Assembly: GCF_000373245.1 (NCBI RefSeq)
Contig: NZ_KB890738.1
Span: 439,713 to 503,712, forward strand
DNA from: Echinicola pacifica DSM 19836
GTDB taxonomy: Bacteria > Bacteroidota > Bacteroidia > Cytophagales > Cyclobacteriaceae
Length of the DNA: 64,000 nt
Direction of reading: 5' to 3'
The notes beneath the pieces were generated by a model. It was not told where the DNA came from. It saw only the letters and a program-made list of their open reading frames with translations, and did not search any database. Positions 7,951-41,258 of this stretch are shown in pieces; the first letter of the stretch is position 1, and every line of letters starts with the position of its first letter. The translations under genes were made by a program, and so were the position numbers.

Positions 7951-9354
7951 TCAATTTCCCTCCAGCAACTCAAACAAGGCCTCTCGTCCCTGCACTGCAT
8001 GAGCAGGCAATAGGCTACCATCGGCGCCAAATACCTGCAAGTCCTGCTCGGATAAAATCGTGATATTATCTTCTGCTACCTGTCCCAGCTGATTGAGGAG
8101 AGATTGCGGGTTTAGCCCCAGGTGTTTGGCCATAAAGGGGTACATGGCTTGTCGCTTGGAGAAGCCGTAATCATGTCCTTCTTGGGAAAAATGACTATTG
8201 ATCAGCAGGTCTTCTTGATCATAGAAACCATATATTCTGCGGATATAGGGAAGCTCCAGCTCGGGAACCGAATGGGTCCAGTCGCCTCCGTCAGAGATGA
8301 TGAGCAGTGGTCGAGGAGCGGTCATAGCGGCGATTTCCGCATTATTAGTTCCTCCACCGCAGAGGTGTATTGGCTTCCCGCTCTCACAAGGGCAGCCACC
8401 CGAAAAGTGGGAGGAGAGCATAACGGTGGGCACAGACACGGTGATGCGATCGTCTATGGCGGACAGCAGCATGGTCTGCGAGCCCCCGCCGGATCCTCCA
8501 GTGATGCCCACGCGCTGAGGGTCTGTTTCTGGCAGGGCAGTCAAATAGTCGATCCACTGGATGCCATTCCAAGTCTGCAAGCTATGCGCCGCAGCCAAAT
8601 GATGGTCCTCACTGTCGAACTGTAATAATGACTCGCCCCAGGCAAAGAGATCATAGCCCACCACGACCGCTCCCATCCGGGCCAAGGTCGCACTTCTGAT
8701 CTGCTGGCTTTCCCGATAGCGGCCCTGGCCAAAATGACCATTTGGCATGATGACAATCGGGAGGTTTTCTCCTAAGGGAAAAGGTCGGTAGATGGAGCCC
8801 GTGGTGAATATTCCCGGCAACACTTCCAAGGCAATATTCTCTACGGAATAGCCCTCAAAGATTTTTCTTTCATTCACAATCGGGGCATTATTCGGAGCGG
8901 CAGGCAAAGCTTCCAATGCCAAAGCCTCCATTATACAGGCTTTCAGAAGGGCTTTTCGGTTTTCCCATTCCTCAAGGTTATGATAAGTGGAAGCCAAAAA
9001 GTCCAGCTGCTCCTCGGCAGCAGAGCGTGATTTCTTATGATATTGAAAGGGCTTTATGGTATAATGACTGGCATCTTCTTTGAAAAAAGTCAGGTCAAAA
9101 GGCGCCAGTACCGCCGTGAGTGATACCTCCAAATTTCCCTGTCTGATTCGCCAATACGCATAGTCAAGGGATTTTCCCTCCACGAGCTTAGGCTCATATT
9201 TCAGCTGCACCCCAAAGATCTCCTCTATTTTTGTCAGGCTGGCAGCAAGGTTTTCACGGTAATTATGATCCGAATCCTGGGCCAAGCACCGCCCCAGTCC
9301 AGCCATAATAAAAAGGAGGAAGGCTAAGAAGAACTTGTTTTTGGGGGAAGACAT
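7951..9354 (-). CDS. STN domain fused to alpha/beta-hydrolase esterase
   Basis: A secreted alpha/beta-hydrolase (signal peptide about 1-26). Residues about 35-100 resemble an STN (secretin/TonB short N-terminal) domain, with an LxxIxxxFGVQLKY start and an FDLTF...YTI end. A hydrolase domain follows, with nucleophile Ser288 in GGSGGGS, His394 in EGHDYGF, and acid candidates Asp355/Asp358. A Cys-rich GGCPCESG patch (319-326) and Cys332 match acetylxylan-esterase-like families that include pectin methylesterases of the BT1017 (CE19) type. The likely role is de-esterification of pectin, removing methyl or acetyl groups. It starts three bases after the DUF1537 kinase stop, so it shares that transcript. 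The STN part on an enzyme is unusual. The esterase fold is secure; substrate and CE family are inference. Confidence 0.8.
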   Translation of the reverse strand: MSSPKNKFFLAFLLFIMAGLGRCLAQDSDHNYRENLAASLTKIEEIFGVQLKYEPKLVEGKSLDYAYWRIRQGNLEVSLTAVLAPFDLTFFKEDASHYTIKPFQYHKKSRSAAEEQLDFLASTYHNLEEWENRKALLKACIMEALALEALPAAPNNAPIVNERKIFEGYSVENIALEVLPGIFTTGSIYRPFPLGENLPIVIMPNGHFGQGRYRESQQIRSATLARMGAVVVGYDLFAWGESLLQFDSEDHHLAAAHSLQTWNGIQWIDYLTALPETDPQRVGITGGSGGGSQTMLLSAIDDRITVSVPTVMLSSHFSGGCPCESGKPIHLCGGGTNNAEIAAMTAPRPLLIISDGGDWTHSVPELELPYIRRIYGFYDQEDLLINSHFSQEGHDYGFSKRQAMYPFMAKHLGLNPQSLLNQLGQVAEDNITILSEQDLQVFGADGSLLPAHAVQGREALFELLEGN

Positions 9355-9357
9355 AGG

Positions 9358-10533
9358 CTAGACCACAGGTTTTTGGAGTTCGAAATAGCGATATACAGCC
9401 TCCGGCCAAGCGTAACTGCCGGGCTTAATCGTCAGGACCATATCTTTGCCTTCCACCTTCAGCCTCACCACCCCAGGGCTGAGCTCCTGCATAGGGATCA
9501 ATGCGCCCAAAGCCAGCTCCTCGATGACAGCACAGGTGGTCGCCCCACCTTCCAATAATAACTCCCTAACGGGAATTTCTTGGATGACTTTAGCCACTGC
9601 CATGGCGGTACGTTTCTTGAGCACTGCGGGGTAATTATCGAATTTCACCTGCTTACTTCCATAGGCCATGATCACGCGATCTCCATCGAGCAAGCCATCG
9701 GCAACATCATCCACCCAGGCCTCAAGGGCTTGGTCGCTGAAGGCCTCTTGCATAAGACCAAGGGGCATTTCGCTTAGATGAACGCCTTTTTCCACTGCTT
9801 TATGTACAAAGTCTTTGCTATTTTGGTGGCTGCTACCTGCGATCATCAGGCTATTGCCTACGAAAGATAGAGGGTCTGGCTCCTGGCCTCGCATCCAATC
9901 GGGAAAGTTTCGCTTTAGGCACATCTCAAAAAAGGCCGCACTGCCTGCCGGCAATACCGAATCATCCATAAGGCTGGCCCAATCATAGAGGTCTTGCATA
10001 TTCTGAGAATCCGGGATGTTAAACCCTATATTCAGGTCTTCCTCTCCCGAAAACATCCCATAGGCCACTGGCATTTCGCTTTCCCTCAGCAAATCCTTAA
10101 CATTGGAAGAGAAGGCGGGGAAGGTGGGATCATCCTTAAAGCTGGTTTCGCTCAGCGGATTACCTTTGACATAATATTCCCCATGGCTGATACTCCGACC
10201 CGTATAGGGATTTGCCGGGACCAACAGAATCTTGCTCTTGTGCATTTTTTGGGCCAGCACTTTAAGTTCGGCAGCCACATGCCCACGCATGGCCGAGTCA
10301 GATTTCTTAAATATCCAGGTAATGCCCATGGCGAGGAGCTCGGCGGCGATCCTATCGGTCTCGTGGATGGCCTGAACTTCTGACATGGATCGGGTGTCGG
10401 TGGCTATCACCATTACCTCCGCCCCATGGATGGGGCTGGCATCCAGCGCAAAAGACACAGGAATACCCCATCTCAGGCATACCCCTGCTATTTCGGCAGC
10501 GCCGGTAATATCATCAGCTATAACTGCTATCAT
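9358..10533 (-). CDS. DUF1537 four-carbon acid sugar kinase (D-threonate 4-kinase type)
   Basis: A cytoplasmic 391-residue kinase of the DUF1537 family (DtnK/DenK/OtnK/OiaK group), which phosphorylates the terminal hydroxyl of four-carbon acid sugars with ATP. The substrate-domain signature ADDITGA is at residues 6-12, and the C-terminal nucleotide-domain signature LLLEGGAT lies near 346-353. It overlaps the PdxA2-type gene by 20 bases (10514-10533), a pairing described for catabolism of D-threonate and D- or L-erythronate to DHAP. In this locus the acid sugar probably comes from aldolase cleavage of a pectin-derived keto-deoxy sugar, since an aldolase and an alcohol dehydrogenase are encoded just upstream. 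D-threonate is the predicted substrate if the upstream sugar is Dha. Specificity is not proven by the sequence. Confidence 0.93.
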   Translation of the reverse strand: MIAVIADDITGAAEIAGVCLRWGIPVSFALDASPIHGAEVMVIATDTRSMSEVQAIHETDRIAAELLAMGITWIFKKSDSAMRGHVAAELKVLAQKMHKSKILLVPANPYTGRSISHGEYYVKGNPLSETSFKDDPTFPAFSSNVKDLLRESEMPVAYGMFSGEEDLNIGFNIPDSQNMQDLYDWASLMDDSVLPAGSAAFFEMCLKRNFPDWMRGQEPDPLSFVGNSLMIAGSSHQNSKDFVHKAVEKGVHLSEMPLGLMQEAFSDQALEAWVDDVADGLLDGDRVIMAYGSKQVKFDNYPAVLKKRTAMAVAKVIQEIPVRELLLEGGATTCAVIEELALGALIPMQELSPGVVRLKVEGKDMVLTIKPGSYAWPEAVYRYFELQKPVV

Positions 10534-11572
10534 ATTTTTTTCTGTTTATGGCCATCGGAATGGCATAGTCAATCGCTAAGTTTAAGGCATCTTCGGAGGC
10601 TATTCCCTGCCCGGCAATCTCAAAGGCAGTACCATGATCCACCGAGGTGCGGATGATGGGCAGGCCAAGAGTGATATTTACCCCCTTGACACTTTCCATC
10701 GTTTGGGAAGTATTGTCCCATTTGAAGCCAATCATCTTGAAAGGAATATGACCCTGATCGTGATACATAGCCACGCAGCCATCATAATATCCCTGCACGG
10801 CCTTGGCAAATAATGTATCAGGAGGCACAGGGCCGAAAGCATCTATCCCCTCCTCCCGGGCAGCAAGCACCGCCGGAAGGATCTCCAGATCATCCTCCGT
10901 CCCGAATAAACCTCCGTCACCGGCATGTGGGTTTAGCCCGGCCACCCCGATACGGGGCTTGGCTATCCCAAACTGTTGGCAAGCTTCCTGTAAAAGATGG
11001 ATTACCTCCAGTACTCTTTCCTTCTTCACTAAGTCACAAGCCTGCCGAAGCGGCACATGGGTGGTGACATGGATGACGCGAAGGTTTTGCTCCACCAGGA
11101 GCATGGCATATTTCTTTGTATTGGTATATTCAGCGTAGATCTCAGTGTGCCCAGCATAATGATGCCCGGCCAGGTTGATCGCCTCTTTATTGATCGGGGC
11201 GGTGACGGTGGCATCCACCACCCCGGCAAGGGCAAGCTGGATTACCTTTTGGACGGCCTCGAAGGCTGCATTTCCTGCCATAGCGCTCACCTTGCCATAT
11301 TCCAGCTCCTCCACCTTTACATTGGCCAGGTCTATCACCTCGAGAGTCCCACTCTCATATCGAGCTTCGGAAACCTCCTGCAAGGCAGATACCTTCAAGG
11401 AACTCCCGAGCCGCTCCACCGCCAGCGAAAGCGTCTTTGCATCTCCCACCACCACAGGCCGGCATTTGCTATGCAAGCCGCCAGCCTGAAAGCTCTTCAC
11501 AATGATCTCCGGTCCTATTCCAGCCGGATCACCCATGCTGATCGCTATTATTGGTTTTTCCATTATCTTCAT
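10514..11572 (-). CDS. pdxA2: PdxA2-type 4-phospho-D-threonate/erythronate 3-dehydrogenase
   Basis: A 352-residue NAD-dependent, metal-dependent dehydrogenase of the PdxA family. The N-terminal MGDPAGIGPE motif (13-22) and the three metal-ligand histidines of PdxA are visible: His172 (THVPL), His216 (NPHAGDGG) and His271 (YHDQGH). Classical PdxA acts in vitamin B6 synthesis on 4-phosphohydroxythreonine. The PdxA2 subgroup, always beside a DUF1537 kinase, oxidizes and decarboxylates 4-phospho-D-threonate or 4-phospho-D-erythronate to dihydroxyacetone phosphate and CO2. The 20-base overlap with the kinase and absence of other B6 genes support PdxA2. An alternative start, Met4 (11563), is possible. 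The 237 bases between this gene and the dehydrogenase upstream hold nothing I can name. Confidence 0.92.
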   Translation of the reverse strand: MKIMEKPIIAISMGDPAGIGPEIIVKSFQAGGLHSKCRPVVVGDAKTLSLAVERLGSSLKVSALQEVSEARYESGTLEVIDLANVKVEELEYGKVSAMAGNAAFEAVQKVIQLALAGVVDATVTAPINKEAINLAGHHYAGHTEIYAEYTNTKKYAMLLVEQNLRVIHVTTHVPLRQACDLVKKERVLEVIHLLQEACQQFGIAKPRIGVAGLNPHAGDGGLFGTEDDLEILPAVLAAREEGIDAFGPVPPDTLFAKAVQGYYDGCVAMYHDQGHIPFKMIGFKWDNTSQTMESVKGVNITLGLPIIRTSVDHGTAFEIAGQGIASEDALNLAIDYAIPMAINRKKYDSSYS

Positions 11573-11809
11573 TTTTTATGGACATCGATGGAGGATCGCT
11601 GGCCTTAAAGCCTCACCTCCCTCCACGGTCTCAGTCCTCTGATCCCTGAAAATAGGCCGGGCAGCAATCGCTCTAGGCCCAGCTTACTTCCTCTAGCCTG
11701 CTTACGAAATCGTATTAAGGCTACTTTATACACTATTTATCTAATATTCTTATGTATTCATTAGTTTATGCAAGCCGGGAAAAGCCGCCATTTCCTCGCC
11801 TGATTTGGA

Positions 11810-12955
11810 TCAAAAGAGGCTATAGTAAATCTGCTCGGCATCCTCCAAGGTCATTTCCTTAGGGTTATTTTTCAATAAACGGCTTACCCTCATGGCCATA
11901 GTCGCCAGCTCGGTGACATCTTCTTTCTCCACACCTAAGTGGCTAAGATCCTGAGGTATATTACATAACCTCACCATTTCCTTAATTTTCTCCAGCCCAT
12001 TTTTGGCTGTTTCTTCAGGGCTATTACCTTTTTTTGCCCCTATGGCTAGAGCGATTTGCTCATGCTTTGATACGTCGGAGGACAGGTTATAGGCCATGAC
12101 CTCGGGCAGCAAAACGGCATTTGCCAATCCATGAGGCACATGATACTTCCCACCTAAGGGGTACGAAAGCGCATGTACCGCAGCGGTATTTACTGGACCC
12201 AAACAGAGTCCTCCATACATGCTTCCCAAAGCGACCGCCGTCCTGGCCTCAATATCGGAGCCATCGGTATAAGCTCGGAGGAGGTTTTGTCCGATGAGCG
12301 AAATTCCCCTTAGCGCATAGTCATCGATCAGCGGATGGCTAAACTTATTTGTATAGGCCTCTATGCAGTGAGACAGGGCATCGATCCCTGTTTCTGCGGT
12401 GATCTTTGCTGGCAAGCCCAGCGTGAGATCAGGATCTATATAAGTAGCATCCGGCACCAAATACGGACTGATCACCCCTTTCTTCTCCATCGTCTCCTCA
12501 TCTAGGAGAATGGCATTGGGCGATACCTCGCTGCCTGTACCTGCTGTGGTAGGAATACATATCAAGGCTGTTTTCCGACTTTCTAACAAATTTATACCAA
12601 TAAATTCACTTAACTCACTTGTACTGTCCTGCATCGCCGCCAGGATCTTCGCCAGGTCCAGGACACTGCCGCCACCTATGCCCACAATCACCTGAGGCTG
12701 AAAGGATTTTACCTCCCGGAGGTATTGCTGGTATAAGCCAAAAGTAGGCTCGCCTGCCTCATATACCGAAAGGCGCAGCCTGATACCTGATGCCTTCAGC
12801 CGGTCTATCCCTGGTTTTAGCGCCTTAGTCAAGGGCTCAGCGATCAATAAATATACTTTTTTGGGCGCAGCCTGCAGGGTATCCTCCACAAATAGCTCCC
12901 ACGATCCGCTGCCAAAAACCAGCTTTGAAGGTTGTAATAACTGTATTGCCCTCAT
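11810..12955 (-). CDS. iron-type (group III) alcohol dehydrogenase
   Basis: A 381-residue cytoplasmic dehydrogenase of the Fe-ADH superfamily. The NAD(P)-binding GIGGGS is at residues 92-97, TTAGTGSE at 136-143, and the metal ligands Asp192, His196, His261 and His275 are all present. Family members interconvert aldehydes with alcohols on many small substrates. Its start overlaps the stop of the SSS symporter gene by four bases (ATGA, 12952-12955), so the two are translationally coupled. Between an aldolase and a four-carbon acid kinase, the logical reaction is reduction of the aldehyde released by the aldolase (a tetruronate) to an aldonate such as D-threonate. That substrate is inferred from context only; a role on lactaldehyde from rhamnose or fucose is the main alternative. 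Confidence 0.92.
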   Translation of the reverse strand: MRAIQLLQPSKLVFGSGSWELFVEDTLQAAPKKVYLLIAEPLTKALKPGIDRLKASGIRLRLSVYEAGEPTFGLYQQYLREVKSFQPQVIVGIGGGSVLDLAKILAAMQDSTSELSEFIGINLLESRKTALICIPTTAGTGSEVSPNAILLDEETMEKKGVISPYLVPDATYIDPDLTLGLPAKITAETGIDALSHCIEAYTNKFSHPLIDDYALRGISLIGQNLLRAYTDGSDIEARTAVALGSMYGGLCLGPVNTAAVHALSYPLGGKYHVPHGLANAVLLPEVMAYNLSSDVSKHEQIALAIGAKKGNSPEETAKNGLEKIKEMVRLCNIPQDLSHLGVEKEDVTELATMAMRVSRLLKNNPKEMTLEDAEQIYYSLF

Positions 12956-14529
12956 GAAAATTCCTTTATTTTTTCCGTCTTATTTTTTCCTTTCAGATAA
13001 CCGTATATCGTGAGGTTCTCGGGCGCTTTGGGGCTAGGGAAAAACAAGCTTGCTCCATAGCCAACCACCAAAACGATCACATGACTGTACACCCCAAGCA
13101 TATACTTATGCTGTGTGAAATTATATTTCCCTAAATCCAAAAGAAGTTTTTCGTCTCCCCCAAACCCCATGGGGCTGGAGGTAAGCAGGGCGTAGGCCGT
13201 AAAGAGTACACATGCCGCTATCCCCACATATAAGCCTTGCTTATTGGCGCGTCTGCTGAGTATGCCTAGCAGGAATATCCCTACTATCCCGGCAGAGAAT
13301 ATCGCATATAAGCCAAATACGGCCCCGAGTACCCCCTGACCATCCCATAGAACATACAGTACCGCCACCACCGCCGCAGCAAGACCAGAAATAAACACTA
13401 GAATCCTCCCTACTTTCAGCTTCTGCTGGCTGGTACAGTGGGGCCTGAATCGCTTATAATAATCCTCCACGCCCACCGCCGCAAGGCAGTTCATATCAGA
13501 ATCCAAACTAGAAATCGCTGCCGCCGCCAAGGCCGATAGTACCAATCCGGTAACACCGGGTGGCAGCTGGCTCATAATGAAATAAGGGAATACCTCATCC
13601 ACGCTCGTCCCCTCGGGCAGTGCAGCCCCAGAGCTATTATAAAACACATACAGCAGCGAGCCTATGAGCATAAATAAAGCCCAAACCGGAACGCTCAGAA
13701 AAACGCCCATATAGGCCGCCTTCTTGGCCTCCTGATCATTGCGTGCCGTCAGGTACCGCTGGACTATCGTCTGGTCAGTGCCATATTTCTGAATCGCATA
13801 GAAGAACCCATTGAAGACCATCACGATGAATGTCAACTGTGTAAAATCAATATCGTAAGGGCCAAAACCTATTTTATTCATCTCAATGGCCTTGCCCATC
13901 ACCTCCGAAGGCCCTCCCTCGGGAACAAACAATAATAAACCCAGGCAGAATAAGCCCCCGCCAATCAGCAGAAAACCCTGAATGACATCCATCCATATCA
14001 CCGCTTCGATTCCGCCCAGTAAGGTCAGGACTATGATTACAAAGGTGAGTACCCCGATAATCAGAAATATATCGATCCCAATCATACTACTCAGAGCAAG
14101 GCTGACCAGGTACAATACCGTTCCCATCTTAGAGAAATGGGTCAATACAAAAGCTAGGGAACTGTATAATCGAGCAAAGAAGCCAAAGCGCTTTTCGAAG
14201 TACTCATAGGTGCTCAGGCCGATAACCTTGCGAAAAAGCGGGACAATCACCCATATCATGCCCAGCAAAACGATGGGTACCATAAGCCCCTGGACCAGCA
14301 AAATCCAATTGGATTTATAGGCCGCACTAGGATAAGCCAGGAAGGTCACACTGCTGATCAGCGTGGCAAAAATAGACATGCCTATGGCCCAGGCAGGGAT
14401 TCCTCCTCCACCCGCAAAATAATCTTCGCTGCTTTTTTGTCGCTTGGAGAAATAAATCCCCATCGCTATCGTCCCCAGAATCGAGAGGATGATCAGTAAA
14501 TAGTCTATCCAGTGTAATCCGCCGTTCAT
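12952..14529 (-). CDS. sodium:solute symporter (SSS family)
   Basis: An inner-membrane protein of the sodium:solute symporter (SLC5-like) family with about 13 hydrophobic helices. The N terminus from ATG 14529 reads MNGGLHWIDYLLIILSIL and the SEDYFAGG motif follows TM1, as in many Bacteroidota sugar and sialic-acid symporters. A longer reading from a TTG at 14574 adds 15 polar residues before TM1 and is less likely. It is coupled to the alcohol dehydrogenase by an ATGA overlap and lies 113 bases from the aldolase gene. The neighbours suggest uptake of a keto-deoxy acid monosaccharide or similar pectin product across the inner membrane. The family includes NanA-aldolase-linked sialic acid transporters, a useful analogy for Dha. 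The cargo is inferred. Confidence 0.92.
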   Translation of the reverse strand: MNGGLHWIDYLLIILSILGTIAMGIYFSKRQKSSEDYFAGGGGIPAWAIGMSIFATLISSVTFLAYPSAAYKSNWILLVQGLMVPIVLLGMIWVIVPLFRKVIGLSTYEYFEKRFGFFARLYSSLAFVLTHFSKMGTVLYLVSLALSSMIGIDIFLIIGVLTFVIIVLTLLGGIEAVIWMDVIQGFLLIGGGLFCLGLLLFVPEGGPSEVMGKAIEMNKIGFGPYDIDFTQLTFIVMVFNGFFYAIQKYGTDQTIVQRYLTARNDQEAKKAAYMGVFLSVPVWALFMLIGSLLYVFYNSSGAALPEGTSVDEVFPYFIMSQLPPGVTGLVLSALAAAAISSLDSDMNCLAAVGVEDYYKRFRPHCTSQQKLKVGRILVFISGLAAAVVAVLYVLWDGQGVLGAVFGLYAIFSAGIVGIFLLGILSRRANKQGLYVGIAACVLFTAYALLTSSPMGFGGDEKLLLDLGKYNFTQHKYMLGVYSHVIVLVVGYGASLFFPSPKAPENLTIYGYLKGKNKTEKIKEFS

Positions 14530-14642
14530 TCGGTATTTTGGGTTATTATTATAGAATAATTTTGCGCCGAGCAAAGCCCTCAGGGAATGCCCGGTATCCT
14601 AATACAGCAGCCTACAAGGCTCGCTAAGCCATATCCTGCTGC

Positions 14643-15560
14643 TCATTGCTGGAGTAAAGGGTTTACCTGGCTCCACTGAGCCAGTATTTCTTCCACCTCC
14701 CCCTGCTCCAGCTCGCTCAAAGGGGGCTTCATATACTGCTCACATAATCCCTGATGCTTCATTAGCACCTTTAATGCCGACAGAGAGGCCCCAAGACTGC
14801 GTCCGGACTGGTAGATTTTGGCCACCTCATCACTTAAGTTTTGGTAATGTCTGGCCCTGGCATCCTCGCCATTTGCTGCCGCAGCATATAGTTTTTGGTA
14901 TATTTCTGGGACAATATTACCCGTGCTGGGCACAATACCATCTGCCCCTGTCCTGATGCTGTCTGCGGACTGAGCACCCCAGCCACAAAAAAAGGAAAAA
15001 TCAGGCCTTTGGCGATAGCGACCGATCGTCTCTGCCATTCGCTCACCATCCCTTTCGGAGTCTTTTAGTCCCCAGATATGAGGGTGATGACTCATCTCCT
15101 CCACCACCGATAGGGGGATGGACATCTGGGTAGTGGCCTTGATATTATACATCAATAAGGGCCCCTGAAGCTGCTCTGCCAATCGCTCAAAATAACGCTT
15201 CATCTGATCCGCCGACAGGATATAGTAGGCAGGCAATGTGGCCACGACAGCATCCACCCCCAGGTCCAAATACTGCTGACCTCTGCCGGCTTGCTCTGCC
15301 ACATTATTACTCACCAAGCCTGCATAGACTTGCTGATGGGCGGATTTGGAGGCGATTGCTGCCTTCACCATCTTATGACTTTCTTCCTGCGAAAATGAAG
15401 CCGACTCCCCCGTGGTCCCCAGCAGAAGCGGCGAAATATCATACCGGGCAAATGCCTCCATGATCCTAGCCACCGCCTCTATATCTATCTCCCTTTTTTC
15501 ATTCAGTGGAGTCACCATCGGCACCACCACCCCCTTATATTTCTTTTCCATAGGTATCAT
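14643..15560 (-). CDS. DapA/NanA-family class I aldolase
   Basis: A 305-residue TIM-barrel protein of the dihydrodipicolinate synthase / N-acetylneuraminate lyase family. It has the pyruvate-binding GTTGES motif (48-53), Tyr138 (YN) and the Schiff-base Lys166 in GLKDSE. Members form or cleave bonds to pyruvate: sialic acid lyase, KDG aldolase, deoxyglucarate dehydratase, true DapA. The cluster contains no lysine-pathway genes, so synthesis of dihydrodipicolinate is unlikely. With a symporter, Fe-ADH, PdxA2 and DUF1537 kinase beside it, the best reading is cleavage of a 2-keto-3-deoxy acid sugar to pyruvate plus a shorter aldehyde. Dha would yield D-threuronate. KDG or Kdo cleavage would not explain the four-carbon acid genes as well. 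An alternative start at Met4 (15551) is possible. Confidence 0.9.
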   Translation of the reverse strand: MIPMEKKYKGVVVPMVTPLNEKREIDIEAVARIMEAFARYDISPLLLGTTGESASFSQEESHKMVKAAIASKSAHQQVYAGLVSNNVAEQAGRGQQYLDLGVDAVVATLPAYYILSADQMKRYFERLAEQLQGPLLMYNIKATTQMSIPLSVVEEMSHHPHIWGLKDSERDGERMAETIGRYRQRPDFSFFCGWGAQSADSIRTGADGIVPSTGNIVPEIYQKLYAAAANGEDARARHYQNLSDEVAKIYQSGRSLGASLSALKVLMKHQGLCEQYMKPPLSELEQGEVEEILAQWSQVNPLLQQ

Positions 15561-18502: not shown

Positions 18503-20377
18503 TCAGTAGCTAATTAGAGATTCCAAATAAAATTCGGCCTCTGGATCCATCTGCCCAGCGCCATTCACATCATAATCTTGATCAGTGGGAGTCTCCGCAT
18601 GAGGAAAATAGCGCTGGGTGCCGGTACGAAATACGATCCGCTCCATCGCCTCCAGAGGGGCAAAGAATAATTTGGGGCCCTTCTCAATGCCATTCACCTT
18701 CAGGGAATAAAACCGTGTTTCCACATCCAAATCCATTTCCACCTTATAGGTCTTTCCCTTCTGGTATTCGCTGAGGGTGTTCATCCTATAGCCAGCGCGG
18801 GTTTTGATCAGCCCATCTTCATCAAATAGCAGCTGGACTCCAGGCCGCCCTTGAGCATCCTGGATTTCTATTTGTAGCTTGCCATGATCATCCTGGTTTG
18901 GGATCAGGGTAAATTCCACATGAAGCTGCTTGCTGGAGGGAATAATCCGCTGCGCCTTTGCATAATCAAATGGGTCCTTATCGGCCATGCGAAGGTAGCG
19001 CTTGCCTTCCTTCCTGCTGATCTGAGTCTTTGCCCACTGGGGGCTGTAAGTATTCCATAGTCGAAGTTCCTGTCCTTCGGGCAACTTATCGAATACCTCC
19101 ATGGCATGGCCAGCGGCCTCTGCGCTAATGGGCGTCGGCACGGAGGCCACCCAGATATCCTCCTTATTTACACTATAGGTCAACCACATTTTGCCATCGG
19201 GAGGGGTTCCATTGCCCTCCAGGATTCCCCTGATATATTGCGGCCCATAGGATTTATAGTTTCCTCCATATCTCATAGTGGTGATTTCTCCATGAACCAA
19301 TAATAAGTTGGTATAATCGATCCCATCCACGCTGGTGGACACCGCCAAAGGCCAGCGGTATTCCGAGGGATTATAGACCAAGGCAAATGCTCCATCGGCG
19401 GTCCTTTGTCCCCAGATTTTGGCATTGGAGTTGACTATTCTAGGGGCTCGAAGCGGCATATATTGCCAGGAAAGGCCTCCATCGGCGCTGATGCTGGTCA
19501 GGGCATGCTTCCATAGACCCAGGACCCTTGAGTCGGGCAGAGTATAGTAGCTAAAGGCCTTATACTGCTTTTGGAGCGGGATCAGTGGGTCATCACGATC
19601 TGCTTCCTCCACCCACTGCTGCATCATCAGGGGCTTGCTCAGCAGCTCCTCACAGGCCGCCACCATAGCCCTATCCGTACTGCTTTTGTAAAATGGATAA
19701 TCGGTATTCCCTTCGGTCCAGCCCTTATTATATCGTATAAAATAAATAGGGCCGAAGCTTCCATCTTCCTTGATCTCTCTAATCACTCTCCCTATACCCT
19801 TACCATCATTGGGGCCATCATGGGCATCCATCGCTATCCCATAATAGGCCAGCGCTAGTAGCTTCCCGTTGCTGGCCACATAGAAGCCCATCCTCTGGTG
19901 CATCACCGCATCGAGATCTTTGGCTATTCCTTCATGGCCTTCCTTCCTGGTCCCATCGGGAATCCGGTAAGGAGGGAATATTACCTCAGGCATGGTCCAC
20001 GAATATCCATCTTCTGAGGTTTGCAATAAAGTCTGACTGGGCGCAATATGCTCTCCTACGGGATCGCTCAGGTATTCCAGATAGTACTTTCCCTGCCAGT
20101 ATGCGATCATGGGAGCATGATTATAAGTCCAGCCATAGCCATCACTTTCCTCTGGCATTTGCCGGTTGGCGCGCATGGTCTGCACGGCATGTACCCCCAC
20201 GGCAGGCTGCAATTGCCCATGGTGATAATCCACCCTTGAGAGAGTGCTTCCACTATAATGAAGGGTATCCTGAGCCCGGACATCCGGAATGTACAGACCC
20301 AGAGACCATACTAACAGCCCTATAAGCCCTAAATTCATGCGCCTTGCTTGATATAGATTATTCATTATTCTTCGCAT
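18503..20377 (-). CDS. sialidase-like beta-propeller, GH143 (Dha hydrolase) candidate
   Basis: A 624-residue secreted protein (signal peptide ending DVRAQ, residue 36) with three Asp-box motifs of sialidase-type propellers: SEDGYSW (121-127), SADGGLSW (297-304) and SVDGIDY (349-355). A C-terminal LamG/beta-sandwich-like region spans about 480-624. Automatic annotation would call it exo-alpha-sialidase, but the RIR-type arginine triad of true sialidases is not evident. In this pectin locus, the better candidate is GH143, the Dha hydrolase module of BT1020 from Bacteroides thetaiotaomicron RG-II degradation. Dha and sialic acid are both 2-keto-3-deoxy acids, which would explain the fold. The start overlaps the GH43 end by 20 bases; Met5 (20365) or Met14 (20338) are also possible. 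The GH143 label is inference. Confidence 0.62.
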   Translation of the reverse strand: MRRIMNNLYQARRMNLGLIGLLVWSLGLYIPDVRAQDTLHYSGSTLSRVDYHHGQLQPAVGVHAVQTMRANRQMPEESDGYGWTYNHAPMIAYWQGKYYLEYLSDPVGEHIAPSQTLLQTSEDGYSWTMPEVIFPPYRIPDGTRKEGHEGIAKDLDAVMHQRMGFYVASNGKLLALAYYGIAMDAHDGPNDGKGIGRVIREIKEDGSFGPIYFIRYNKGWTEGNTDYPFYKSSTDRAMVAACEELLSKPLMMQQWVEEADRDDPLIPLQKQYKAFSYYTLPDSRVLGLWKHALTSISADGGLSWQYMPLRAPRIVNSNAKIWGQRTADGAFALVYNPSEYRWPLAVSTSVDGIDYTNLLLVHGEITTMRYGGNYKSYGPQYIRGILEGNGTPPDGKMWLTYSVNKEDIWVASVPTPISAEAAGHAMEVFDKLPEGQELRLWNTYSPQWAKTQISRKEGKRYLRMADKDPFDYAKAQRIIPSSKQLHVEFTLIPNQDDHGKLQIEIQDAQGRPGVQLLFDEDGLIKTRAGYRMNTLSEYQKGKTYKVEMDLDVETRFYSLKVNGIEKGPKLFFAPLEAMERIVFRTGTQRYFPHAETPTDQDYDVNGAGQMDPEAEFYLESLISY

Positions 20378-39670: not shown

Positions 39671-39700
39671 CAAAAAAAAACGGAGCTTATTCGGCTCCGT
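39671..39700 (-). terminator. terminator overlapping the end of the RNase G gene
   Basis: Stem ACGGAGC (39680-39686) with GCTCCGT (39694-39700), followed on the minus strand by a run of nine T (plus-strand A at 39672-39680). The 5' arm contains the last codons and the stop of the RNase G gene, so transcription ends immediately after it, separating core genes from the pectin locus. Confidence 0.88.
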
Positions 39701-41258
39701 CTTTTACTTCCAGTTCTATTTCTTCTCCTGATTGATCCAGGAATTTATACTCCGTCACTGGTAATGAAGAATCTTTGATCAAGGTTACCCATTTGAAATA
39801 CTTAAAAAACCACTTGACCCTTTTGGATATCATGCCATGGGTAAAGTAGGCATGAAGGTAAGGGTGTAGACCAATTTTAATGGTTGATAAGTTTTGGTGC
39901 ACTGCAGTATGTTCAAGGTCTCTTTCCAGTTTGTCAGCTACCAGGATCGAAGCCTGGATTTTGCCTGTACCATTACAAGAAGGACAGGTTTCTTTAGTGA
40001 CAATATTTACTTCCGGTCTGACGCGCTGCCTGGTTATTTGCATTAAACCAAACTTAGTGAGTGGCAGGACGGTATTTTTGGACCGGTCATCCTTCATTTC
40101 ATTTTTCATGGCATCATAGATGGCGCGTTTATTTTCGGCCTTTTTCATATCTATGAAGTCAATGACAATGATACCTCCCATATCCCGGAGGCGAAGTTGT
40201 CTGGCAATTTCTTTTACGGCAACCAGGTTAGTTTTCAGTGCTGTAGTTTCCTGGTCACTTTCTTGATTGGACTTATTACCGCTGTTCACGTCGATGACGT
40301 GCAGGGCCTCGGTATGTTCGATGATCAGATAGCCACCGTGTTGGAGGCTAACTGACTGTCCAAAGAGACTTTTGATTTGTTTTTCAATACCAAAACTTTC
40401 AAAGAGCTTAGCTTTTCCGTTGTAAAGCTTAACAATTTTTTCCTTTTCTGGGGCGATAGATCTTATATAAGTTCGTATCTGATCATAAATTACCTCATCC
40501 TCTACCGTGATTGCATCGAATGATTCGTTGAGCAGGTCTCTCACAATGGAGCTGGCCATGCTCATTTCTCCTATAACCTTGTCTTTGCTTTTGGCTTTCA
40601 TCAGCTTGACCATACCTTCATCCCAGCTTACTACCAGGTTTCTGAGGTCTTTGTCTAATTCTGTGACAGATTGACCTTCAGCAACAGTTCTGATAATAAC
40701 GCCGAAATTATCGGGTTTAATGGAAGTGATGAGTCTGGCGAGTCTTTTTCTTTCCTCTGCTTTGCGTATCTTTTTGGATACGTTGACAGTATTGGAGAAA
40801 GGTACCAGCACCAAGTAACGACCGGCTAGGGAGAGCTCACAGGATAGTCGTGGGCCTTTTGTAGAAATAGGCTCCTTTACAACCTGAACTAAGATTTGGT
40901 TATTTTTAGAAAGGACTTGGGAAATTTTTCCCAGCTTTTCTATCTCAGGTTCTAGATTAAAGCCCTTAAGGGTGGGTTCCTGTTGGTGGTTATTCCTGAT
41001 CTGTTTGGTATATTTGATCAGGCTTTTCACCTTAGGACCTAGGTCTTGGTAGTGCAAGAATGCATCTTTTTCGTATCCTACATCAATAAAAGCCGCATTA
41101 AGGCCATTGACGATTTTACGAACAGTACCTAGGTACATGTCCCCCACTTTAAACTGATTGCTGTCCTCATCAGAGTGCAGCTCCACCAGTCCCTTATCTT
41201 TTACGAGGGCAATTCGACTTCCGTTTTGAGCAGAATCTATTACTAATTCCGTACTCAA
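39687..41258 (-). CDS. rng: RNase E/G family ribonuclease
   Basis: A 523-residue endoribonuclease of the RNase E/G family, used in rRNA maturation and mRNA turnover. It has an N-terminal S1 domain (about 36-125) and the catalytic core with magnesium-binding Asp323 (VIDVNSG) and Asp367 (IVIDFID), followed by the zinc-link CPSC (Cys425, Cys428). The start is TTG at 41258. It is supported by an AAGGAG site seven bases upstream, a rare clear Shine-Dalgarno in this window, and by alignment of the STELVIDS N terminus with Bacteroidota RNase G. Upstream on the same strand are a tiny ribosomal-type gene, a TPR gene and HU, so this may be a growth-related cluster. Confidence 0.96.
   Translation of the reverse strand: MSTELVIDSAQNGSRIALVKDKGLVELHSDEDSNQFKVGDMYLGTVRKIVNGLNAAFIDVGYEKDAFLHYQDLGPKVKSLIKYTKQIRNNHQQEPTLKGFNLEPEIEKLGKISQVLSKNNQILVQVVKEPISTKGPRLSCELSLAGRYLVLVPFSNTVNVSKKIRKAEERKRLARLITSIKPDNFGVIIRTVAEGQSVTELDKDLRNLVVSWDEGMVKLMKAKSKDKVIGEMSMASSIVRDLLNESFDAITVEDEVIYDQIRTYIRSIAPEKEKIVKLYNGKAKLFESFGIEKQIKSLFGQSVSLQHGGYLIIEHTEALHVIDVNSGNKSNQESDQETTALKTNLVAVKEIARQLRLRDMGGIIVIDFIDMKKAENKRAIYDAMKNEMKDDRSKNTVLPLTKFGLMQITRQRVRPEVNIVTKETCPSCNGTGKIQASILVADKLERDLEHTAVHQNLSTIKIGLHPYLHAYFTHGMISKRVKWFFKYFKWVTLIKDSSLPVTEYKFLDQSGEEIELEVKDGAE

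Follow-up and report, generated by a model that had tools for sequence, protein, structure and literature searches.

Among plant polysaccharides, rhamnogalacturonan II (RG-II) is the most complex, and the hydrolases that degrade it are known from work on gut Bacteroides. One of its sugars, 3-deoxy-D-lyxo-2-heptulosaric acid (Dha, with the D-lyxo configuration at C4 to C6), is known in land plants from RG-II only. In the open literature, with most subscription papers outside the scope, we found no description of the fate of Dha after release and no published catabolic pathway for it, which agrees with a preliminary description of the DNA treated here. Here, we report a cassette of five genes from Echinicola pacifica DSM 19836 at positions 9358 to 15560 of a 64,000-nucleotide stretch of contig NZ_KB890738.1 (the window), encoding an aldolase, a sodium:solute symporter (SSS), an iron-containing alcohol dehydrogenase (Fe-ADH), a PdxA2-type dehydrogenase, and a short DUF1537 kinase. 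We put the probability that this cassette degrades Dha at roughly 77%, given its gene content, its conservation, its link to family GH143, its intact catalytic residues, and a stereochemical fit; every substrate and every step of the route we infer from these. The cassette would then likely represent the first complete Dha catabolic pathway (SSS, Dha aldolase, threuronate reductase, D-threonate kinase, and PdxA2), occurring widely among rumen and environmental Bacteroidota and reaching Melioribacter-type and, with no linked Fe-ADH, Planctomycetota genomes.

Among the closest described systems, D-threonate catabolism reportedly proceeds via DtnK and PdxA2 (Zhang et al. 2016), and PdxA2 converts D-threonate 4-phosphate to dihydroxyacetone phosphate (DHAP) and CO2. 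The DUF1537 kinase DtnK has D-threonate as its substrate (PMC10971088). The cassette contains the same kinase and dehydrogenase families and is predicted to run the same conversion of D-threonate, through the 4-phosphate, to DHAP and CO2, but its kinase, from a short and divergent subfamily, scores under the DtnK cut-off, and whereas the known system imports D-threonate, here the aldolase, Fe-ADH, and SSS would make it from a C7 acid. Glucarate and galactarate are degraded by the aldolase GarL, the tartronate-semialdehyde reductase GarR, and the glycerate kinase GarK. The logic is alike (a 2-keto-3-deoxy-aldarate yields pyruvate and a semialdehyde acid, which is reduced and passed to a kinase), but that route takes a C6 acid, one carbon shorter than proposed here, and its HpaI-type, beta-hydroxyacid dehydrogenase, and glycerate kinase families are replaced in the cassette by a DapA-type Schiff-base aldolase, Fe-ADH, and DUF1537 with PdxA2. 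Sialic acid utilization also has a DapA/NanA lyase (N-acetylneuraminate lyase), which releases pyruvate from a 3-deoxy-2-ulosonic acid, and a dedicated transporter in the operon, but hexosamine enzymes stand downstream where the cassette has tetronate enzymes. A DUF1537 kinase also takes part in D-apiose catabolism, and the D-apiose/apionate system shares RG-II loci with the cassette, but it uses a kinase subfamily of ~470 amino acids (aa) and other partners. RG-II degradation by Bacteroides thetaiotaomicron is related in that homologues of its GH143 enzyme BT1020 and its esterase BT1017 adjoin the cassette.

The cassette and the proposed Dha route

All five open reading frames (ORFs) are complete and lie on the minus strand (Table 1), transcribed in the order aldolase, SSS, Fe-ADH, PdxA2, kinase, and BT1017-type esterase, the last 3 bp downstream of the kinase gene. 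The kinase and PdxA2 genes overlap by 20 bp and those of Fe-ADH and SSS by 4 bp; 237 bp separate PdxA2 from Fe-ADH. The preliminary description had proposed five adjacent genes with two overlaps and intact active-site residues in an RG-II type locus, beside candidates for Dha release; the window ORFs and Pfam recovered all five genes with their families, the residues were seen for the aldolase and for the metal ligands of Fe-ADH and PdxA2, and both a GH143 gene and a BT1017-type esterase gene adjoin. The SSS is listed with a TTG start; translation could equally well begin at an in-frame ATG 15 codons further on. Compared with Echinicola arenosa, synonymous sites were saturated and dN/dS was mostly incalculable.

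In the proposed route, GH143 would free Dha from RG-II side chain D and the SSS would import it. The aldolase, via Lys166, would split Dha between C3 and C4 into pyruvate and D-threuronate, Fe-ADH would reduce the aldehyde of D-threuronate to give D-threonate, the short DUF1537 kinase would form D-threonate 4-phosphate, and PdxA2 would oxidize C3, with decarboxylation yielding DHAP and CO2. A single step order, aldolase first, is possible, because the aldehyde for Fe-ADH arises only from the aldolase product. The route would cost one ATP and be redox neutral, since the NAD(P)H spent at Fe-ADH comes back at PdxA2. Its stereochemistry had earlier been argued to lead to D-threonate, and recomputation gave the same answer: Dha minus pyruvate (C1 to C3), with the C4 aldehyde reduced, is (2S,3R)-2,3,4-trihydroxybutanoate, that is, D-threonate.

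The aldolase has the Schiff-base lysine, catalytic tyrosine, GxxGE motif, and TIM barrel of the class I DapA/NanA superfamily, and its catalytic set (GTTGE, Tyr112, Tyr138, and Lys166) is essentially invariant among 69 cassette aldolases. It falls outside DapA (dihydrodipicolinate synthase [DHDPS]), with 146 bits against a cut-off of 206 for the dapA family model and with Thr143, in 99% of the cassette aldolases, at the position of Arg138, which in DHDPS binds the carboxylate of aspartate semialdehyde. Family features are K166-D-S-E-R170, Arg174, Trp194, and a basic residue (Arg/Lys) at position 254 in 97%; the conserved basic residues may bind the C7 carboxylate of Dha. The predicted model (predicted local distance difference test [pLDDT], 96) is a TIM barrel with a Z score of 39.9 to N-acetylneuraminate lyase 5c54, equally near sialic acid lyases and DHDPS and with ~19-26% identity to solved ones. 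In a tree, the cassette aldolases were monophyletic and apart from four DapA-type paralogues encoded elsewhere in the same genome and from Escherichia coli DapA, NanA, and YagE. The enzyme is predicted to be a Dha aldolase, converting Dha to pyruvate and D-threuronate.

The kinase gene is the only DUF1537 gene in the genome. Its product has both domains over the Pfam cut-offs and a model (pLDDT, 91) with the full-length DUF1537 fold (Z score of 41.9 over 376 residues to 5dmh), which places it in the acid-sugar kinase family, and it is a predicted D-threonate 4-kinase. The nearest solved relatives of the cassette PdxA2 are 2hi1 (PdxA2; 316 bits) and 6e85 (297 bits; named D-threonate 4-phosphate dehydrogenase in the PDB), ~100 bits above E. 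coli PdxA (200 bits). Metal ligands H172, H216, and H271 are conserved, as befits PdxA2, and the housekeeping PdxA encoded elsewhere in the genome is 35% identical. The protein is predicted to be a D-threonate 4-phosphate dehydrogenase yielding DHAP and CO2; against the equivalog model of that name (NF002891), it scored 345 bits, below the cut-off of 583. Fe-ADH, a putative D-threuronate reductase producing D-threonate, conserves the metal ligands D192/H196/H261/H275 and the family-specific Arg238 and Arg359 (62 homologues), and the SSS is a putative inner-membrane importer of Dha.

If the Dha reading is true, the cassette would provide a substrate for a divergent DUF1537 branch, a new specificity in the DapA/NanA superfamily, and a marker by which to recognize genomes with more complete use of RG-II. 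Culturable isolates (Echinicola, Spirosoma, Pedobacter, and Mucilaginibacter) carry the module, making the fate of released Dha testable. Dha standards are lacking (PMC12168206), and the reverse reaction of a Dha aldolase could supply the compound.

Conservation and co-occurrence with GH143

DUF1537 was found in 23 of 291 genomes of the window's taxonomic order, mainly as canonical (~470 aa) or short (~380-391 aa) kinases, and four genomes (G072, G268, G284, and G287) had both types. All seven short kinases of the order occurred with SSS, PdxA2, aldolase, and Fe-ADH, in varying gene order. A profile made from these seven yielded 170 relatives (one genome per species), and neighbors within 10 kb were counted for the best 80 of the 170. 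PdxA2 was present at 78/80 loci, SSS at 73/80 (identity typically 56-66%), aldolase at 72/80, and Fe-ADH at 67/80; the same five genes stood together at 63/80, and therefore the clustering is not due to chance. Gene order was mainly Fe-ADH-aldolase-PdxA2-kinase-SSS (51 loci), with the order of the window at 9 loci, and aldolase, PdxA2, and kinase were co-conserved at nearly every locus long enough for judgment. Clustering of neighbors independently of the window placed the cassette five in 63 to 76 loci, far above the next families (BT1017-type esterase, 26; GH78, 23; BNR_2, 22; DUF3826, 21; LacI regulator, 19; GH143, 17; GH141, 9); within 10 kb, the BT1017-type esterase was found at 33/80 loci. 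Carriers include Echinicola, Anditalea, Spirosoma, Larkinella, Pedobacter, Mucilaginibacter, Niastella, Mangrovibacterium, rumen Bacteroidales, and Melioribacter, and Phycisphaerae (Planctomycetota) have the cassette without a linked Fe-ADH. In many lineages, it adjoins GH143 or sits inside an RG-II locus.

GH143, which we take to be the Dha-hydrolase family (CAZy; Ndeh et al. 2017), was detected by whole-genome searches in 72 of 78 kinase genomes (46/50 and 26/28). It was present in 59/61 genomes with a complete cassette (a count that leaves out two further complete-cassette loci, L168 and L175) versus 14/291 phylum-background genomes without the kinase (Fisher P of ~1e-50), the opposite of a cassette found mostly in genomes without RG-II enzymes. 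Within the order, GH143 occurred in 7/7 cassette genomes, G268 and G284 among them, versus 31/291 overall (Fisher P of 8e-8). Relatedness as the source of the association was checked at the genus level, where the association held (6/6 cassette genera versus 9/110; P of 1.7e-6).

Several observations weigh against the Dha reading. The kinase scored 102 bits against the D-threonate kinase equivalog NF047819, far under the cut-off of 450, and is therefore labeled a DUF1537 kinase that would work like DtnK, not a DtnK equivalog; the DtnK-like kinase of the preliminary description holds for family and fold, but the protein lies farther from characterized D-threonate kinases than was implied. Five loci (L130, L133, L150, L172, and L193) have no linked Fe-ADH, L130 and L150 being on short contigs, and a substitute reductase sought in four cassettes without Fe-ADH was not found. 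Two Melioribacteraceae (G362 and G460) and Dyadobacter bucti (L170) have the cassette but no detectable GH143, and a Cytophagaceae metagenome-assembled genome (L144) is a further exception; the G460 cassette lies near GH127- and GH43-like genes and has no linked SSS. Only 3/17 GH143 genomes of the phylum sample have the cassette, and a Bacteroides control genome, searched for DUF1537, gave no match, although GH143 is present. Gut Bacteroides therefore probably do not have the cassette route, and since most GH143 genomes, including Bacteroides, are without the cassette, Dha release is possible without it. GH143 marks RG-II degraders generally, so its co-occurrence alone does not point to Dha specifically.

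A LacI-type regulator lies near the cassette in 19/80 loci (e.g., L040:14641-15672, L130:92-1111, L144:5485-6537, and L193:3360-4355), which suggests induction by a cytoplasmic sugar-acid ligand. In G287 (L036:4360-7326, minus strand), the SSS and the BT1017-type esterase run together as a single open frame of 988 aa whose joint is FecR_C/STN-like, either a real fusion or a lost stop. The short kinase at G323:C1:2382798-2383934 contains an in-frame TAA, possibly from a decaying cassette or a sequencing error, although G323 has GH143 and the remaining four genes of the cassette.

Alternative readings

The aldolase could act mainly on another RG-II sugar, 3-deoxy-D-manno-oct-2-ulosonic acid (Kdo), found in side chain C, with pyruvate and D-arabinose as the products and with the kinase and PdxA2 acting on another tetronate. 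NanA-type lyases cleave Kdo, a related 2-keto-3-deoxy sugar acid, E. coli NanA being of the same superfamily as the cassette aldolase (PMC13220900), and the GH143 co-occurrence is equally compatible with Kdo because Kdo and Dha are both constituents of RG-II (PMC12282258). D-Arabinose, however, is no substrate for an acid-sugar kinase and PdxA2, which are both co-conserved with the aldolase, and for aldol cleavage to yield a tetruronate, and from it a tetronate, the substrate must be a C7 ulosarate. We consider Kdo unlikely as the main substrate, although the aldolase may cleave it as a side reaction.

Another reading makes the cassette a general module for acid sugars, carried along with pectin loci, its aldolase taking other 2-keto-3-deoxy-aldarates or -aldonates from a sugar-acid dehydratase. 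In G072, a GntP permease and an IlvD/EDD sugar-acid dehydratase do flank the cassette (L031:16538-17908 and L032:4512-6245), and a few cassette genomes are without GH143, but no dehydratase is found among the recurrent neighbors and nearly all complete cassettes are in GH143 genomes, which leaves this reading very unlikely.

Highly improbable is a cassette for apiose or another RG-II-specific sugar (apionate or aceric acid) handled via the DUF1537 kinase, even with an apiosidase-like gene in the window's RG-II locus and with RuBisCO-like proteins ascribed to D-apiose catabolism (Carter et al. 2018, cited in PMC6302742). To turn either sugar into a 2-keto-3-deoxy acid that a DapA-type aldolase could take, additional enzymes would be needed, and a separate cassette (RuBisCO-like protein, canonical ~470-aa DUF1537, Asp/Glu racemase-like protein, and SBF transporter), which in another family lies in or near RG-II loci, shares one contig with the short cassette in G287. 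The apiose reading is set aside because this different cassette coexists. It was observed at L109:6630-12401 (plus AP_endonuc_2), L111:7070-11761, and L037:491-5302 and is probably a Bacteroidota apionate/apiose cassette, though its composition may differ from published ones.

That the genes are neighbors with unrelated jobs, such as vitamin B6 or lysine synthesis paralogues, is suggested by the family names PdxA and DapA alone and is essentially refuted by five-gene conservation over 60 loci, as well as by the aldolase without Arg138; both biosynthetic readings were rejected because the genome encodes a housekeeping PdxA and four more DapA-type proteins elsewhere, which puts the cassette outside these pathways, and because the cassette copies form separate clades.

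The surrounding RG-II locus

The locus around the putative Dha cassette is RG-II-like in content, with GH143, a GH140-like apiosidase, GH78, GH95, GH28, polysaccharide lyase (PL), and SusCD genes (Table 1). Residues 35-619 of the GH143 gene product align with residues 24-605 of the BT1020 structure 5mqr (1.3e-231), a full-length match to the N-terminal half of BT1020 that places it in GH143, with predicted activity.

Table 1. Features of the window in and around the five-gene cassette
Feature	Position	Strand	Match or remark
DUF1537 kinase, short type	9358-10533	minus	Pfam SBD_N+NBD_C: PF07005 2.5e-35 (122.8 bits), PF17042 32.2 bits
PdxA2	10514-11572	minus	PF04166 9.2e-111
Fe-ADH	11810-12955	minus	PF00465/PF25137
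SSS	12952-14574	minus	PF00474 (SSF) 1.5e-38
DapA/NanA-superfamily class I aldolase	14643-15560	minus	PF00701 (DHDPS) 1.3e-44
BT1017-type RG-II esterase (alpha/beta hydrolase, STN-like N terminus)	7951-9354	minus	6e-122 to 6goc
GH143 (BT1020-type) hydrolase, candidate Dha-releasing enzyme	18503-20377	minus	PF24067 6.5e-123
Upstream RG-II/pectin locus (GH78, GH143, GH43-like, GH28, GH140-like, DUF6298, DUF3826, SusD, SusC, PL10, GH28)	15663-39501	minus	
RNase E/G	39687-41258		Edge of RG-II/pectin locus

Across genomes, matches to PF24067 fell into one class of ~370-434 bits and another of ~280-357 bits, sometimes with both in one genome, and the weaker-scoring class may have another specificity. 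The cassette accompanied the BT1020-like class in 7/21 cases versus 0/9 for the weaker-scoring class (P of 0.07).

At L132:16292-18280, a BNR_2 propeller is fused to an AP_endonuc_2 TIM barrel, and 22/80 cassette loci contain genes from the same cluster. The propeller is possibly a Kdo- or sialidase-like hydrolase, and the cluster is a candidate for another RG-II acid sugar.

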